Below are positions 1-60,036 of a stretch of 64,000 nt of DNA, in pieces; positions within the stretch are counted from its first letter, which is position 1, and every line of letters starts with the position of its first letter. Under the pieces are notes generated by a model. It had not been told where the DNA came from, did not search any database, and worked only from the letters and a program-made list of their open reading frames with translations. The translations under genes and the position numbers were made by a program. Origin of the DNA: Weissella diestrammenae (GTDB lineage Bacteria > Bacillota > Bacilli > Lactobacillales > Lactobacillaceae); assembly GCF_014397255.1 (NCBI RefSeq), contig NZ_CP060724.1, forward strand, positions 496,001 to 560,000, read 5' to 3'.

Positions 1-255
1 ATCGCCTCCCCCAGCAGTTGGTTTTGTCGCGGTTGACGAAGATTCCGATGTCGATGTATCAGCGTTTGAATTTACCCGACTGGTTGTCATGGTTGATTGT
101 TTTGGGGTACTTTGTCGTTTTGACTGCGTTAAATGAGTGGTGTTATTAGTATCGTGTGTGGTCGCTAGGCGACCGACCGCATAAACCCCACCTACAACAA
201 GCCCTAAAGTCAAAAGTCCACCGACTAATCCAATGGTCCACTTATTAATTCTCAT
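1..255 (-). CDS. Membrane-anchored Ser/Thr-rich protein, N-terminal part (cut by window edge)
   Basis: An ATG at 255 opens a frame of 85 codons that runs off the window without a stop. The product begins with a short charged stretch (MRINK), has one hydrophobic segment at about residues 7-26, then a low-complexity linker rich in Thr, Ser, Asn and Gln (about residues 30-85). A GGGAG Shine-Dalgarno lies 5 nt upstream. There is no lipobox cysteine, so a signal anchor or uncleaved signal peptide followed by an extracellular spacer is most likely. The functional domain lies outside the window and I do not recognise the family. Confidence 0.7.
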   Translation of the reverse strand, partial: MRINKWTIGLVGGLLTLGLVVGGVYAVGRLATTHDTNNTTHLTQSKRQSTPKQSTMTTSRVNSNADTSTSESSSTATKPTAGGGD

Positions 256-426: not shown

Positions 427-469
427 CAAAAAAACCACGGTCGCAAGAGGGGGAACGCGACCGTGGTTT
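427..469 (-). terminator. Rho-independent terminator of the candidate small RNA
   Basis: A perfect 13-bp stem (432-444 with 457-469), loop 445-456, followed on the minus strand by a run of seven T. The loop is C-rich in the minus-strand RNA (TTCCCCCTCTT). Confidence 0.85.
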
Positions 470-573
470 GTTATCAACTACAAATAGCAATTGATAACAA
501 GGGTTCTGGCGCTTTGGGGAAGCGCACAGATTCTTCATGTACTTTGGGGAGTAATGAAATCCACTTTAGCAGT
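427..573 (-). ncRNA. Candidate small regulatory RNA with C-rich loops
   Basis: No protein-coding frame of convincing quality occupies this stretch, yet it has a complete transcription unit on the minus strand: an extended -10 promoter just upstream, then a series of perfect hairpins ending in a terminator. Seen in order 5' to 3': the hairpin region around 577-560; an unpaired TCCCCAAAG at 550-542; a GCGCTT/AAGCGC hairpin (525-509) whose loop is CCCCA, so that TCCCCAAAG appears a second time; an 8-bp GTTATCAA/TTGATAAC hairpin (498-470); and a 13-bp terminator hairpin whose 12-nt loop contains CCCCC. Several exposed C-runs able to pair with Shine-Dalgarno GGGGA sequences are known from csRNA, RsaE/RoxS and LhrC-type Firmicute sRNAs; the function here is inference. 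It could instead be a structured 3' end of read-through htrA mRNA. Confidence 0.6.
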
Positions 574-578
574 GGATA

Positions 579-606
579 TTTATATCATACACGTCTTTTG
601 TGTAAA
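579..606 (-). promoter_or_regulatory. Promoter of the candidate small RNA
   Basis: Minus-strand TTTACA (606-601), 16-nt spacer, TATAAA (584-579), with TGA directly before the -10 giving an extended TGnTATAAA box. Predicted start is near 573. It lies in the 110 nt after the htrA stop codon, so the small RNA would be transcribed independently of htrA. Confidence 0.6.
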
Positions 607-683
607 ATGTGTGAATACTACTTTGCGAATATTTTTCAAAAATATTCTTTTATTGAATTATTATTTTTCTCATTAAATTAACT

Positions 684-1940
684 TCACTTATTAATCTTAG
701 CCGTTGTGGCCGTTAACTTGACTTCACCATTTTGAACTTTACCATCTCGATAATAAGTGATTTTAACCGTATCGCCAGTTTTATGTGCATATAAGATATC
801 TCTCAAATCACCAGAGCTACTTACCGCCTTATCATCAATCTTTGTAATGACATCGTATTTCTTCAAGCCCAGAGTTTTAGCAGGTGTATTATCAACAACG
901 CTCATCACAACGACCCCACCGGTAACACTCTCTGGTAACTTCAAAATTTCCTTTTGATCAGTTTCAGTGACATTCACCAAATCAATCATTTTAATTCCTA
1001 AGGCTGGTCGGCTAACTTTACCATCCTTTTCAAGTTGATTAATAATATTGACAACTATATTGGAAGGAATTGCAAAGCCCATCCCCTCAACACTTGTTCC
1101 CGAGGTAGATGAGGCTAATTTCATCGAATTAATCCCAACCACTTGTCCGGCCAAGTTAATCAAGGCACCACCTGAGTTACCCGGATTAATTGCAGCGTCA
1201 GTTTGCATAACAGTCGCTTTCCCTAATGAATTACCGCTTTCGTCAGTCGCTGCGACCTCCCGTTTGGTTGCTGAAATAATTCCCTCGGTTACTGATGTTG
1301 CATATTCAGAACCTAAAGGCGAACCGATTGCTAAGACAGACTCCCCCGCCTGCACTTCATTGGAATTTGCAAATTGTGCAACTTCACTCACCTTATCAGC
1401 TTTAATCTTAATCACTGCCAGGTCAGTAATATTATCAGTTCCGACCAGTGTACCTGTCAATTTAGTACCGTCACTCAATAACACTTGCAGGGCATTCGAA
1501 CCTTCAACCACGTGATTATTTGTTACAACATACGCAGTATTATCCGTCTTCTTATAAATCACACCTGAACCTTCAGATGCAGTTTCCAAACTTGATTTAG
1601 TAGTTGATGAATCTGTTGACTCATCTGATCCTTCACCAAAGATATTCAAACCTGATGATTTTTGCTTTTGTAAGTTGATAACAGATACTACCGCACCTGA
1701 TGTCTTTTTAAATGCCTTAGTCGCGGCGCTCTCGCCCTTAACATTTGTATCTGCAACTTTGACCGGTGTCGTTTTCCCCACCGTCACAGTTGAATTCATC
1801 GCATTTAATTGTTGAATGCCAAACGCACCAGCACCACCACCAATGATGCCGGCAACTAATGCTATCACAACAACTTTTGATGATCCTTGCCAAAACTGTT
1901 GAAAACTCCGATTAATCTTTTTCATACCATCTTTTTTCAT
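684..1940 (-). CDS. htrA: HtrA/DegP-type surface serine protease
   Basis: Membrane-anchored trypsin-like quality-control protease that degrades or refolds misfolded exported proteins. The 418-residue product has a short cytoplasmic N-terminus, one TM segment (about 20-45), a low-complexity linker, a protease domain with TNNHVV (catalytic His), DITDLAVIKI (Asp) and GNSGG (Ser), and a C-terminal PDZ domain (about 310-410). SD GGAG precedes the ATG. It is the last gene of the wal operon, 87 nt behind walJ, and that gap holds its own CiaR-like promoter, so both wal read-through and stress induction are plausible. No terminator directly follows the stop; the next one closes the small RNA downstream. 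Confidence 0.95.
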   Translation of the reverse strand: MKKDGMKKINRSFQQFWQGSSKVVVIALVAGIIGGGAGAFGIQQLNAMNSTVTVGKTTPVKVADTNVKGESAATKAFKKTSGAVVSVINLQKQKSSGLNIFGEGSDESTDSSTTKSSLETASEGSGVIYKKTDNTAYVVTNNHVVEGSNALQVLLSDGTKLTGTLVGTDNITDLAVIKIKADKVSEVAQFANSNEVQAGESVLAIGSPLGSEYATSVTEGIISATKREVAATDESGNSLGKATVMQTDAAINPGNSGGALINLAGQVVGINSMKLASSTSGTSVEGMGFAIPSNIVVNIINQLEKDGKVSRPALGIKMIDLVNVTETDQKEILKLPESVTGGVVVMSVVDNTPAKTLGLKKYDVITKIDDKAVSSSGDLRDILYAHKTGDTVKITYYRDGKVQNGEVKLTATTAKINK

Positions 1941-2027: not shown

Positions 2028-2828
2028 TTAAATACTAGCCAAAGTGGTCGCTCGGTCTGGATTTGTATCAAAAAGTGAGAAATCGTGATTGACCCCCAAA
2101 TCATTTTCCTGCAAAATTTGTTCAACAGTTAAATGCGCCAGTGGCACCTGGTTATTTTCTTGACTCAAATGACCCAAATAGACTTGTTTCGTATTTGAAC
2201 CAATGATATTAGCTAATGTGAGCGCACCATCTTCATTTGATAGATGTCCCTCGTCGCCTAAAATACGTTGTTTAAGCGACCATGCGTACCCACCATAACG
2301 TAACATAGCAACATCATGATTAGCCTCCATTAAAATCGCATCGGCATTATTAATCAAGCCTGCGACCTGTCCACTCACATAACCTGTATCAGTCAGCATA
2401 GCAAAGGTTTTATTGGCATGATGAAATAAATAAAATTGTGGATCAGCCGCGTCATGTGAAACTGAAAAACTTTCGACATCTAAATCACCAAACAACTTGG
2501 TTTGTCCGGCCTCAAAAATTTGTTTTTGTTCTGGGTTAATCGTCCCAATTTTGTCCGACATTACCTGCCACGTTTTCTCATTTGCGTAAACGGGCATCCC
2601 ATATTTGCGTGCCAATATACCAACACCCTTAATGTGATCAACATGTTCGTGAGTGACAAACAATTGATCAACATCATTTAGGGACCGTCCAATCGATTGC
2701 ATCAATGTTTCAATCTTTTTGCCACTTAAACCTGCATCTACTAACACTTTATGCTCTGGTGTTTCAATATAAGTTACATTCCCAGAACTACCCGATGCTA
2801 GCATTGATACTTTAAATTCATCGTTCAT
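2028..2828 (-). CDS. walJ: WalJ/VicX (YycJ) metallo-beta-lactamase-fold protein
   Basis: Predicted cytoplasmic metal hydrolase of the YycJ/VicX family encoded with WalRK; the family is linked to cell-wall homeostasis and DNA processing but its substrate is not settled. The metal-binding motif THEHVDH (HxHxDH) is present at about residues 57-63, with further His/Asp ligands (SVSHDAAD, LTDTGY, GHLSQEN). I place the start at 2828 because AAAGGA lies 9 nt upstream; an in-frame ATG 30 nt earlier lacks a site. Product 266 aa, normal for the family. It lies between walI and htrA. Confidence 0.9.
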   Translation of the reverse strand: MNDEFKVSMLASGSSGNVTYIETPEHKVLVDAGLSGKKIETLMQSIGRSLNDVDQLFVTHEHVDHIKGVGILARKYGMPVYANEKTWQVMSDKIGTINPEQKQIFEAGQTKLFGDLDVESFSVSHDAADPQFYLFHHANKTFAMLTDTGYVSGQVAGLINNADAILMEANHDVAMLRYGGYAWSLKQRILGDEGHLSNEDGALTLANIIGSNTKQVYLGHLSQENNQVPLAHLTVEQILQENDLGVNHDFSLFDTNPDRATTLASI

Positions 2829-2854
2829 GCTTTTGCATCCTTTCATACCAGCCA

Positions 2855-3673
2855 TCAATTCATCAATTTACCATCAAAAGCATTAATACGTAACACATTT
2901 TGTTTTGATCCGTTTTGAATTAAAACAAACCATGTTGGCACAAAGACTGTATTCTGATCAACCTCAATTAATGGACTATATCCCATTTTACACCATAAAA
3001 TTACCGAATTATTTGGTAACTCATTATATTGATACAAGTCAATCACTGCTGTTTCAGCGGTAATCGTTGGCATCGGTTCACGTAACACCTCAGTATCTGA
3101 AATATAAGTTTGGGTGTATTTTTCTAACTCAAAATGGGTGTTTAAGTAGATTTTGATTTGCCCAACTTCCCCCATTGTTGTTGCTCGGTTGGGTAAGACC
3201 TGCTGATAAACCAAAATGTGTCCGTTCCCAACGAGCTGACGTCCAGCTGTTTTTGTCGCAAGCGCACTATACCGATAACGCTGACCATGAAGAAACGTTT
3301 GCTTATTCTTTAACATTTCCCCTGCCATCTTTCGTGCACTTGCTAAATCTTTGCCCAAGGTTAATTTTTCATTCGGCGTGACAATTAATTGATGTTTGTC
3401 AGCATCAATTTGCGTCTGCATGGCCACAAATTTTTGACTACCTGTTTGCGCCCATTGCATGTCTGTCGCATCACCACCAACATAATTACCATTTTCACTC
3501 ACCGTTGATAGTGTATCAAATTTAATATTATCACTGCGCATATTGTTCAAAACAGCAGCATTATCATCATTATTTCGTGCTTGTGCATTAATTTGAATGA
3601 GTTGATAGCCTAAAAATAAATCAATTAACAAAAAAACGCCAATAAACGTCACGATAATTTTTTTAAAATCCAC
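2855..3673 (-). CDS. walI: WalI (YycI) regulatory membrane protein, GTG start
   Basis: Accessory protein of the WalRK system; with WalH it contacts the membrane segments of WalK and modulates kinase activity. A single N-terminal TM helix (about residues 5-27) is followed by an extracytoplasmic YycI domain, about 272 aa in total. The preferred start is GTG at 3673, with GGAGG 7 nt upstream; it shares one base with the walH stop codon (TAGTG), which implies coupled translation. A longer frame upstream overlaps walH and is unlikely to be used. Confidence 0.88.
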   Translation of the reverse strand: MDFKKIIVTFIGVFLLIDLFLGYQLIQINAQARNNDDNAAVLNNMRSDNIKFDTLSTVSENGNYVGGDATDMQWAQTGSQKFVAMQTQIDADKHQLIVTPNEKLTLGKDLASARKMAGEMLKNKQTFLHGQRYRYSALATKTAGRQLVGNGHILVYQQVLPNRATTMGEVGQIKIYLNTHFELEKYTQTYISDTEVLREPMPTITAETAVIDLYQYNELPNNSVILWCKMGYSPLIEVDQNTVFVPTWFVLIQNGSKQNVLRINAFDGKLMN

Positions 3674-5016
3674 TAGTCTCCTCCTAACAACGTGCGATTG
3701 ACTTGCATATCGTTTTGGATTGGATGCCAACTATCATCCTTTAACTGTACAAACCACATCGGATTTAATGTCACAAAGCGGTTATCCTCACTAGATACCC
3801 ATTGATAGCCGATTGACCAATTCTCAATCTTATTTGTTTTCACACCTGCTTTTTTTAGCGCTACTAATTGTTCTTCAACCGAGGGCAAATAAACAACTTC
3901 AGACTTAGAACTTGGTAAAGGCACCTTCAAAGTATACTTCGAAAATTGCATGCGTAAATGACGATTAGAAAGTTGGATCACTTGAACGGCACCAAATCCT
4001 TGATCACTGAAAACTGGTACGCCATCAACAAAGACGCGAAATTGTAACGTCCGATGATTGCTATTACTTTCAAAATAGCCCAGATTGTCAGCGGATTGAT
4101 GAATTTTATTAGCCCACTTGGTAGCAGTTGTAATGTGTTTGTCCAATCCGTTTAGTGGCCAGTGAACATTATAATTATCAAAGACCATTGAGCCGTTATT
4201 GACATTTTCAGTCAATTGACGATTTTCACCATCGCTGTATTGCACATCATTGCCAGTCTGGAAATTTCTTTGGGGAATATCACTACCTGAAAACAAAGCA
4301 TTAACAAAGACTTCTGGACTCTCTTCACCTAACAAATACGTATGTACTTTTAAAGGTATTTTTTGCAATAACCGCATATGCACTTTCTGATTTTGCCAAA
4401 CCAATTCTGTTTTCACCCGTTGACCTTCAAAAGTCAGCTTATTTGGTGTTGTTCTCGCTAGGATAACTGGGAAAATATAGATTGTCTGATGCCGATTATC
4501 ATACATCTTCACTTCACTTGGGTAACCTTGCGCCGAAACTTGAATAAAATCAATTGTCGCATTTTCAGGTAATTTGTATTGTCGACCAATCGTTGCAGTA
4601 ATACCATTTTGGGTAACTGTGTGACCAAACCCGACTAGAATCGAATCTTTGCGATTCAGCGCTGTGAGATACGCTGCTTTTGAAGATTTTTTTGTAATCA
4701 CTCGCCCCACTTGCCAGTTCTTCATCATCTCTGAGAGCGTATTTAGACGAGTTCGACTTTCAATATAATAATTGGTTTCACCACTAGTATCTGTATATAG
4801 TAATTGATTAAGCGTGAACAGATTAGTCGTGGCACCTAACGTCACTGATGCTTCATTGTTTGCGCTTTTACGAATTAGGTTTTTATCCTGATTAATAATC
4901 TGCGCCCAAATTAATAGGGATAACACCACACTTAAAACCACCACAACCGATAATACAAGTTGCGGCCAATTACGCTGCAAAAATAAACGCATTGGGCGTC
5001 GCTTATCCCATTTCAT
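3673..5016 (-). CDS. walH: WalH (YycH) regulatory membrane protein
   Basis: Second accessory regulator of WalK. One TM helix near the N-terminus (LVLSVVVVLSVVLSLLIW), then a large extracytoplasmic domain of the YycH type. Several in-frame ATGs exist; I use 5016 (MKWDKRRP), which overlaps the end of walK by 14 nt and has GGGAGG about 12 nt upstream, but an ATG 9 nt further upstream is possible. The overlap with both walK and walI indicates one coupled transcript. Sequence conservation in this family is low, so the call rests mainly on topology and synteny. Confidence 0.88.
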   Translation of the reverse strand: MKWDKRRPMRLFLQRNWPQLVLSVVVVLSVVLSLLIWAQIINQDKNLIRKSANNEASVTLGATTNLFTLNQLLYTDTSGETNYYIESRTRLNTLSEMMKNWQVGRVITKKSSKAAYLTALNRKDSILVGFGHTVTQNGITATIGRQYKLPENATIDFIQVSAQGYPSEVKMYDNRHQTIYIFPVILARTTPNKLTFEGQRVKTELVWQNQKVHMRLLQKIPLKVHTYLLGEESPEVFVNALFSGSDIPQRNFQTGNDVQYSDGENRQLTENVNNGSMVFDNYNVHWPLNGLDKHITTATKWANKIHQSADNLGYFESNSNHRTLQFRVFVDGVPVFSDQGFGAVQVIQLSNRHLRMQFSKYTLKVPLPSSKSEVVYLPSVEEQLVALKKAGVKTNKIENWSIGYQWVSSEDNRFVTLNPMWFVQLKDDSWHPIQNDMQVNRTLLGGD

Positions 5017-6880
5017 CAAAATCATCGTCCTCCCAATCGTCATCTAAATTACCTTCGATTGTATACGGTAGGGCAATATTAAAAGTCGACCCCTGACCTT
5101 CCTGCGATGTCACCCAGATTTTTCCTTTAAAACTTTCAACAATTTCTTTTGAAATAGCGAGTCCAAGACCGGTACCACCTTGTGCTCGTGAACGTGCTTT
5201 ATCAACACGGAAGAAACGATCAAAGACATGGTTTAAATCTTTTTGTGGAATTCCCAACCCTTGGTCACTGATACTCAAAACGACCTGTCGTTCTTCTTTG
5301 ACCATACGCGTTGTAATAACACCCCCATCAGGCGAGTACTTAATCGCATTATTCATAATATTATCAATAACCTGCGTCAATTTCGATGGATCAATCTCCA
5401 CCCAGATTGACTCATCCGTCACATCTCGAACAATCGAATACTGTTTTTGGTCTGGTTGCTGTTCATTTGAAATTATCATATCAAACCGGTTCAAAATATA
5501 ATTGAATAGCTCACTCAGATTCACATACTCTAAAGTCAAACGCATGGTTCCAGAATCCATTCGTGATAATTCAAGCAAATCATTAATCATGTGAATCATG
5601 CGGGTCGTTTCATCTTGGGCAACTTTTAAGAAATGCGGTGCTACTTCTTGATCGTTCATTGCACCGTCTTGCAAAGCATCAATATATGACTTGACTGATG
5701 TCAGTGGTGTACGCAATTCATGTGAGACATTAGACACAAACTGACGCCGTTCCTCATTGATGCGCTGCTCTTCCGTCACATCATGCAAGACAATGACCAT
5801 CCCGGAAATAAAGCCAGACTCGCGTTGAATCTGAGTGTTATACACTTTGACTTTTAATTGTCGATCGTCATCACTGAAGTCCAAAAACAGATTGTCATCA
5901 TTTTCAAAGAATTCGCGTAATTGATATTGTTCATTCAAATGCAAAATTTGAAGGACATATTGTCCCAAAACCTCTGAGACATCTTCAATACCAATCATAG
6001 CCAAGGCGGCAGAATTAATCAGATTAATTGAACCACGACGGTCAGTTGCAATCACCCCATCTGTCATATGCTCTAGCACAGAGTCCAGACGTCGCCGTTC
6101 AAGTTCTTGTGAGTTCGTTGTTTCTTCAATCCGTTGTGCCAATGCATTGACATTTGTAGCCAACTGGCCAATTTCATCATGACTACGGACATCAATATCA
6201 CCCGAGTAATCACCCGCAGCAATTCGAATTGTTCGTTGATTAATATCTGAAATTGGTTTAGCTAGCGCTCGTGAAATAATAACTGCCATGATGACACCTA
6301 ACATGACCGCTAGTAATGTCGCCGACAAATAAATCACAGATATACGCTGTAAAGTTGCGTAAACGCTCTCCAAGTTGGCCTTGACGATTACCGCACCAAC
6401 CGTTGTATTATCACCATTCGTTGTTTCAATCAATGGTTTAACAACGGTTTGATAACGACTTGATCCATGCTGCTCCACCGGATTTTTCAGATAAGTTTGA
6501 TTATTAGCCGCATGCCTAAGATTACTATCTGTCGTCTTTTGACCAACGGCATCTTGATCATTAATATCACTCGTCCCACGAATGATACCTTGTGTATCAA
6601 CCACTTCTATTTCCGTGATCAAAACATTGTTGACTGATGATAGCACGTTATGAATATTGGCATTACTACTAGCTGTTTCTGAACCGGTTAATTGTTGCGT
6701 TAACTGATCTGATACATATGCCGGTAAAGTAATCTGTTGTCTAAAATTGGACAAATTAGACCGTTCCAACTGTTTGATGAAAAAAGCGCCGATTAATTCC
6801 AAAGTCACTAAAAGTGTCAATGTAAAAACGAGTGCTATTTTAAAGTGAATTGATGCAACAAATTTTATCCCTTTTTTCAC
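5003..6880 (-). CDS. walK: WalK (VicK/YycG) sensor histidine kinase
   Basis: Sensor of the essential WalRK system controlling peptidoglycan hydrolases. The 625-residue product shows two TM helices (about 14-34 and 180-200) flanking an extracellular sensor domain, then HAMP (about 200-255), PAS (about 260-370), HisKA with FVSNVSHELRTPLTS (phospho-His) and an HATPase domain with N-box NNAIKYSP and the glycine box GLGIPQKD and GGTGLGLAI. The C-terminus is strongly acidic (DDDWEDDDFDEMG). The streptococcal form has one TM helix; the two-helix form here matches lactobacilli and bacilli. It overlaps walH. Confidence 0.95.
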   Translation of the reverse strand: MKKGIKFVASIHFKIALVFTLTLLVTLELIGAFFIKQLERSNLSNFRQQITLPAYVSDQLTQQLTGSETASSNANIHNVLSSVNNVLITEIEVVDTQGIIRGTSDINDQDAVGQKTTDSNLRHAANNQTYLKNPVEQHGSSRYQTVVKPLIETTNGDNTTVGAVIVKANLESVYATLQRISVIYLSATLLAVMLGVIMAVIISRALAKPISDINQRTIRIAAGDYSGDIDVRSHDEIGQLATNVNALAQRIEETTNSQELERRRLDSVLEHMTDGVIATDRRGSINLINSAALAMIGIEDVSEVLGQYVLQILHLNEQYQLREFFENDDNLFLDFSDDDRQLKVKVYNTQIQRESGFISGMVIVLHDVTEEQRINEERRQFVSNVSHELRTPLTSVKSYIDALQDGAMNDQEVAPHFLKVAQDETTRMIHMINDLLELSRMDSGTMRLTLEYVNLSELFNYILNRFDMIISNEQQPDQKQYSIVRDVTDESIWVEIDPSKLTQVIDNIMNNAIKYSPDGGVITTRMVKEERQVVLSISDQGLGIPQKDLNHVFDRFFRVDKARSRAQGGTGLGLAISKEIVESFKGKIWVTSQEGQGSTFNIALPYTIEGNLDDDWEDDDFDEMG

Positions 6881-59847: not shown

Positions 59848-60036
59848 GAATGACTCCTTCCTTCGTCCATATTGGAATATGAGACTAACTCCGTGAGAAA
59901 ACCAACACACCACTGTGGAATCCATGGCAGTGGTTCCCGTGGCAATGCTGCCGGGTGTGTCGCAACCTCTCACATCATCGCTCGTTGCCGTACTTCCTTA
60001 CTTCAGCGCATAATTCGCCCGTCAGTAAATAACGTA
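59848..60036 (-). promoter_or_regulatory. Structured leader of the S10 operon
   Basis: The ~190-nt leader folds into a long hairpin at 59973-59893: GTGAGA with TCTCAC and GACACACC with GGTGTGTT, enclosing GGCAGCATTGCC- and CCACTG/CAGTGG-type inner stems. Position and size fit an L4-responsive S10 leader; I could not match it to a known consensus. Confidence 0.5.

Follow-up and report, generated by a model that had tools for sequence, protein, structure and literature searches.

Streptococcal csRNAs depend on CiaR, an OmpR-family regulator that recognizes direct repeats with an 11-bp period (TTTAAG-N5-TTTAAG) and whose regulon includes htrA. Other small RNAs (sRNAs) of Bacillota, such as RsaE/RoxS, FsrA, RNAIII and SprD, expose a C-rich motif of a kind shown to pair with Shine-Dalgarno sequences. 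To our knowledge, studies of trans-acting sRNAs in food and probiotic lactic acid bacteria are few. The nearest worked-out parallel to the RNA described here is LhrC of Listeria monocytogenes, which directs three redundant UCCC sites against a G-rich region upstream of the start codon of its target (PMC4132741). In LhrC1-5, one of these sites lies in the terminator loop, and expression is reported to be under LisRK, a two-component system for envelope stress, through an element upstream of -53 (PMC4132741).

The locus lies on the minus strand of the window, the 64,000-nucleotide stretch of the 1.66-Mb Weissella diestrammenae chromosome that was analysed (positions 496001-560000). It is almost certainly a genuine sRNA gene, and it represents an RNA family absent from Rfam but of an already known functional kind. 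No Rfam family reaches its threshold at the locus or E <= 5 over the RNA, and the relatives are likewise unmatched. No report of this RNA was found in the open-access literature, which included the Lacticaseibacillus casei BL23 catalogue without its supplementary tables. Like LhrC, the RNA bears multiple redundant C-rich sites (three in the window), the terminator loop holding one, and its lactobacillar relatives are multicopy, as are LhrC1-5. It differs in having five hairpins instead of two and a single-stranded stretch, and the Weissella gene is single copy, linked to wal-htrA and without an Rfam match. The best reading by analogy is that it would work as LhrC does; kinship is not claimed. 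The exposed C-rich motif is shared with the RsaE/RoxS group, whose sequences and structures give no Rfam match to it and whose promoter context is different. With csRNAs it has in common OmpR-type direct repeats of 11-bp period and a connection to htrA, but neither structure nor size, and the CiaR box is absent from the window's promoter.

Fold, conservation and putative pairing loops

The predicted gene is about 150 nt long (428-577, minus strand), starting near 577 and ending in a run of seven T residues (434-428). The fold of 576-427 reaches -63.9 kcal/mol compared with -25.7 +/- 3.1 for shuffled sequences (z = -12.25), and none of 200 shuffles was as good. Five consecutive hairpins are predicted within 577-428, all on the minus strand. 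Hairpin 1 (559-577), ATCCACT..AGTGGAT in ATCCACTGCTAAAGTGGAT, forms the 5′ end of the RNA and was left out of the preliminary description of this DNA; five of its six consensus pairs show changes on both sides and 99.2% of cells are paired. Hairpin 2 (UUCAUUACUCCCCAAAGUACAUGAA, 534-558; 96.5% of cells paired) holds the first copy of TCCCCAAAG (550-542) in its loop, which is better conserved than any other part of the RNA and where T21-T25, C27-C29 and A35-A38 are invariant among 21 sequences. The second copy lies in the loop of hairpin 3 (UUCCCCAAAG, 520-512; hairpin 505-530), so that both copies, rather than only one as first thought, are presented in loops. The hairpin 3 stem varies freely (9/9 pairs with both-side changes; 99.5% paired), while its C-rich loop is retained in most relatives; the C run is lost at three loci (L004, L017 and L018). 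Hairpin 4 (UUGUUAUCAA..UUGAUAACAA, 468-500), with both-side changes in 9 of 11 consensus pairs, precedes the terminator and is longer than the perfect 8 bp initially ascribed to it, having 10 perfect base pairs and about 14 with G-U. Hairpin 5 (428-467; 11/13 pairs with both-side changes) is the intrinsic terminator, with the loop UUCCCCCUCU and the T7 tail. Its loop contains the CCCCC noted earlier (453-449), the third C-rich loop run besides those of hairpins 2 and 3, and CCCCUCUU in the terminator is invariant among 21 sequences.

A DNA search matched most Weissella genomes. Covariance searching, already suggested as a check in the preliminary description, was carried out with a model (R2) built from the sequences of 11 Weissella genomes; it matches the window at 578-426 with 115.7 bits and finds one copy per genome in 27 of 28 Weissella genomes. 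In the 28th genome (G020, locus L084), the same plan can be read behind htrA as CCATTACTCCCCGAAGTAATG.. GGTCCCCACC.. CACCCCGAA.. CAACCCCCTTG. An apparent second copy in G009 (324795) was rejected, as it sits inside a transporter gene.

All five hairpins are backed by compensatory changes. An alignment of 22 distinct sequences has 97.3% of its cells in standard pairs, where shuffles reach 76.7%; both-side changes are seen at 35 of 48 pairs (shuffles, 22.4), and covariation scores 0.614, compared with 0.21 in shuffles and 0.06-0.20 when the structure is slid by 1-3 columns, all figures that are somewhat inflated by an alignment fitted to the structure. None of 500 shuffles attained the observed pairing, both-side-change count or covariation score. 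Hairpins 3, 4 and 5 differ at almost all of their pairs, and when folded singly, nearly all the sequences arrive at this plan. The loops are frozen while the stems drift: the most invariant parts are CUCCCCAAAG in hairpin 2 and CCCCCUCUU in the terminator, and the terminator's CCCCUCUU hardly varies either. Pairing seeds usually show themselves in this way, as invariant loops carried by changing stems, and the C-rich loops look like such seeds for this reason. Loss of the loops and promoter among relatives had been named beforehand as evidence that would count against the RNA; both are retained throughout the genus.

Hairpins 2, 3 and 5 would use their C-rich loops to bind the G-rich Shine-Dalgarno regions of several mRNAs and so prevent translation, and three redundant sites would permit several targets, or the tight binding of one. 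By analogy with described sRNAs, the RNA probably acts in trans through these loops. These genomes have many start regions rich in G, and no target is therefore named: the pattern GGGGAR-N3-9-ATG occurs at about 120 sites in the genome, singling out no specific target, and TTTGGGG before ATG at 72, likewise too many to pick genes. A duplex comparison within the window favoured starts over coding interiors, a result that was discounted as strong Shine-Dalgarno sequences had guided the choice of starts and one of the values was artefactual. The loops might alternatively serve as a protein decoy or RNA sponge, given that similar loops recur in separate hairpins, as in sponges of the CsrA-binding type; four are found at L081 and L084 as against three in the window. 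However, they are C-rich, lack the GGA of CsrA sites and are complementary to G-rich Shine-Dalgarno sequences. Moreover, the UCCC motifs of several Bacillota sRNAs turned out to pair with mRNAs (PMC4132741), and a decoy or sponge is unlikely.

Relatives beyond Weissella

A second model (R3), made from 22 sequences and run on 301 Lactobacillaceae genomes, matches 79 genomes from 12 genera at E <= 0.05. When R3 was run on 298 genomes drawn from the order, matches outside Lactobacillaceae reached E = 0.005 at best; because the best matches in other families fall between 0.005 and 0.05, matches in that range were taken as chance and only clearly better ones were counted. The genera counted besides Weissella are g36 (to 6e-11), g34, which is probably Leuconostoc (to 1e-9), g8 (7e-9), g50 (6e-7, one genome), g33 (to 4e-6) and g37 (to 3e-5). 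Related RNAs are present in at least six other genera of the family; the more distant ones, recognized by plan and motif, are likely homologues. The shared plan consists of UUUCAUU(UU)ACUCC(U)CCAAAGUA.., followed by hairpins with CCCC loops and a terminator. The L. casei BL23 catalogue lists intergenic sRNAs that mostly lack an Rfam match (PMC8220740), and a relative of the Weissella family could be among them.

Outside Weissella the neighbouring genes vary (gntP, gnd, rplS, murI), and the g34 and g36 copies are not linked to htrA. Relatives in g36, g34 and g8 genomes (L094, L096, L098, L101) lie near gluconate permease (gntP) genes and those at L095 and L109 near 6-phosphogluconate dehydrogenase, a proximity that could reflect ancestral order or a functional link. 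About 500 bases from one relative, at L108:907-1037 (minus strand), there is a sub-threshold match to the Clostridiales-1 RNA (31.5 vs 48 bits, E 0.0013). Two or three sRNA copies occur in four genomes (G332, G229, G337, G145). Among the multiple lactobacillar copies, such as L121/L122 in G229 and L128/L129/L199 in G337, some share the same promoter box, and L199 (89497), which looks like a further G337 copy, was found only through its TTCACA-N5-TTCACA box.

Promoter, candidate regulators and gene neighbourhood

The likely -10 box is TATGAT (584-589, minus strand), 6 nt before the predicted start. The TTTACA-16-TGATATAAA promoter first described is present as written (606-601 and 584-579), but the relatives favour TATGAT (589-584) over its second half as the -10 box. 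Most loci have a conserved TA....T hexamer 6-7 nt upstream of hairpin 1, which takes the 7-nt register in 76% of loci vs 12% for the register of the earlier assignment. With TATGAT as the -10 box the start falls near 577 and hairpin 1 is left whole, whereas a start at 573, as previously placed, would cut it.

Further upstream, a direct repeat, TTCACA-N5-TACACA (599-615, minus strand; -38 to -22), occupies the place of the -35 box and forms a putative site for an OmpR-family response regulator. Direct-repeat half-sites, TGTWAH or TTCACA, spaced 11 bp apart precede the sRNAs of relatives as well. In three sets of relatives, a spacing of 11 outscores all others from 7 to 16 and clearly exceeds shuffles: TGTWAH reaches 10.70 of 12 matches in the Weissella set (9.53 +/- 0.15 in shuffles) and 10.79 in the g34-like (Leuconostoc-like) set (9.45 +/- 0.22), and TTHACA-like sites reach 10.76 of 12 in lactobacilli (9.50 +/- 0.19), in each case with z-scores inflated by the relatedness of the sequences. 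The boxes begin mostly at -38 to -40, -51/-52 and -62/-63, in steps of about 11. Judging from these repeats, the sRNA is probably controlled by an OmpR-type regulator.

WalR and its two-component system, essential in several Bacillota, come first among the six OmpR-family regulators of the genome, all of them candidates. That WalR is the regulator in question is a tentative assignment, put at somewhat below even. The published WalR/VicR consensus is TGTWAH-N5-TGTWAH, bound in either orientation (PMC4168254). It is matched exactly at seven loci (L025, L026, L029, L079, L098, L102, L103) and at 11 of 12 positions at many others; exact copies of TGTAAT-N5-TGTAAT, which fits it, occur in the W. 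viridescens group and some g34 genomes. The window's own box, TTCACA-N5-TACACA, does not match this consensus. Exact WalR-type boxes also stand upstream of envelope genes, as in the window's genome before a LysM/CAP cell-wall protein (L145, TGTAAT-N5-TGTTAC at G000:C1:315103-315119) and in G134 before a CpsB-led polysaccharide operon. Such single sites prove nothing, since the TGTWAY pattern shows no clear genome-wide enrichment over its control. The 2.8 Mb of G229 contain only two exact TTCACA-N5-TTCACA sites, which lie at its two sRNA copies; elsewhere this box precedes a Transgly_assoc protein and is found close to a gene for a PrsA-like foldase and to a LysM protein. Two pstS promoters lack a repeat with at least 11 of 12 matches, weak evidence against PhoP/phosphate control.

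In all 28 Weissella genomes the sRNA adjoins the 3′ side of htrA, closing the walRKHIJ-htrA cluster on the minus strand. In the window, the stress-protease gene htrA (684-1940, minus strand) encodes a trypsin-like domain and a PDZ domain (PF13365, PF13180) and is the fixed upstream neighbour of the sRNA, in relatives too. Upstream of it on the same strand lie walJ (MBL fold), walI, walH and walK (Cache_WalK kinase) at 2028-6880 and the DNA-binding domain of walR at about 7194-6964. The walK-H-I-J-htrA order is kept in the named Weissella loci (eight kilobases each), and wherever relatives have sequence on both sides, the sRNA follows htrA directly on the same strand. Only L011 departs from this layout; it belongs to a genome estimated to be only 66% complete, whose htrA fragments are located elsewhere.

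This constant position behind htrA raises the question of whether the RNA is processed from the 3′-UTR of the htrA mRNA or is an elaborate htrA terminator, with no promoter of its own, and the window's own htrA-sRNA interval indeed has no clear terminator. Nevertheless, an intrinsic terminator separates the two in 10 of 26 loci, relatives keep the in-register -10 hexamer and the 11-bp repeats immediately before the RNA, and those in g34 and g36 stand apart from htrA altogether; a 3′-UTR origin is accordingly given about a one-in-ten chance, slightly behind the decoy. Looking downstream, the structure might instead be the 5′-UTR of the next gene and its terminator a regulated attenuator, because in the window that gene follows the terminator and is read from the strand of the RNA. 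It encodes a small predicted membrane-anchored, Ser/Thr-rich protein (window 1-253, minus strand; start codon near 252), and is inserted between the sRNA and the usual convergent DUF1934-family gene. A similar insertion is present in L005 and absent from most relatives. A leader is very improbable: the DUF1934-family gene points the opposite way in most relatives with the RNA itself unchanged, the g34 and g36 genomes have altogether different neighbours, and neither an anti-terminator or ligand-type core nor an Rfam cis-regulatory match is seen at the locus. Least probable of all is a short messenger or dual-function RNA, since the window's 41-aa frame, which opens with an AUG at 538, has no Shine-Dalgarno sequence and is conserved in neither length nor sequence among relatives, where no conserved reading frame was found, in keeping with the original judgement that there is no good coding frame. 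Elsewhere in the window, an S10-Clostridia ribosomal protein leader at 59860-59986 (minus strand) barely exceeds its Rfam threshold (35.6 vs 35.1 bits).

A candidate envelope-stress sRNA

The comparative evidence is read far better as a discrete trans-acting sRNA with C-rich loops, as originally proposed, than in any other way. Like the C-rich, Shine-Dalgarno-pairing sRNAs of Bacillota, it is a discrete unit with a predicted promoter and terminator of its own, as its convergent neighbours in relatives also indicate, and it has exposed C-rich loops (hairpins 2 and 5) that are nearly invariant on covarying stems. The tie to envelope stress, at first suggested by the neighbourhood, gains support from the fixed wal-htrA linkage and the conserved OmpR/WalR-type 11-bp promoter repeats. 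In the proposed mechanism, envelope stress would activate an envelope-sensing response regulator of the OmpR family, which would bind the promoter repeats and switch the RNA on; the first candidate is the cluster's own WalR, with a LisR- or PhoP-like protein as the alternative. As a whole, the explanation of a free-standing, regulator-induced sRNA that is controlled by envelope stress and pairs in trans with Shine-Dalgarno sequences appears likely from sequence comparison.

For a genus-wide, single-copy RNA behind htrA, the analysis supplies an entry point in the form of the gene, its strand, predicted ends, seeds and candidate regulators. If WalR drives it, the locus would allow WalR control of an sRNA to be tested directly. 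A bolder possibility, which we hold to be roughly a one-in-three prospect, is a Lactobacillaceae-wide family of envelope-stress sRNAs under direct control of WalR (or a LisR-like regulator), adding a translational arm to the cell-wall regulon. If so, the regulator would induce envelope genes such as autolysins and foldases while silencing others through the sRNA, and the system would independently parallel the circuit of LisR and LhrC.
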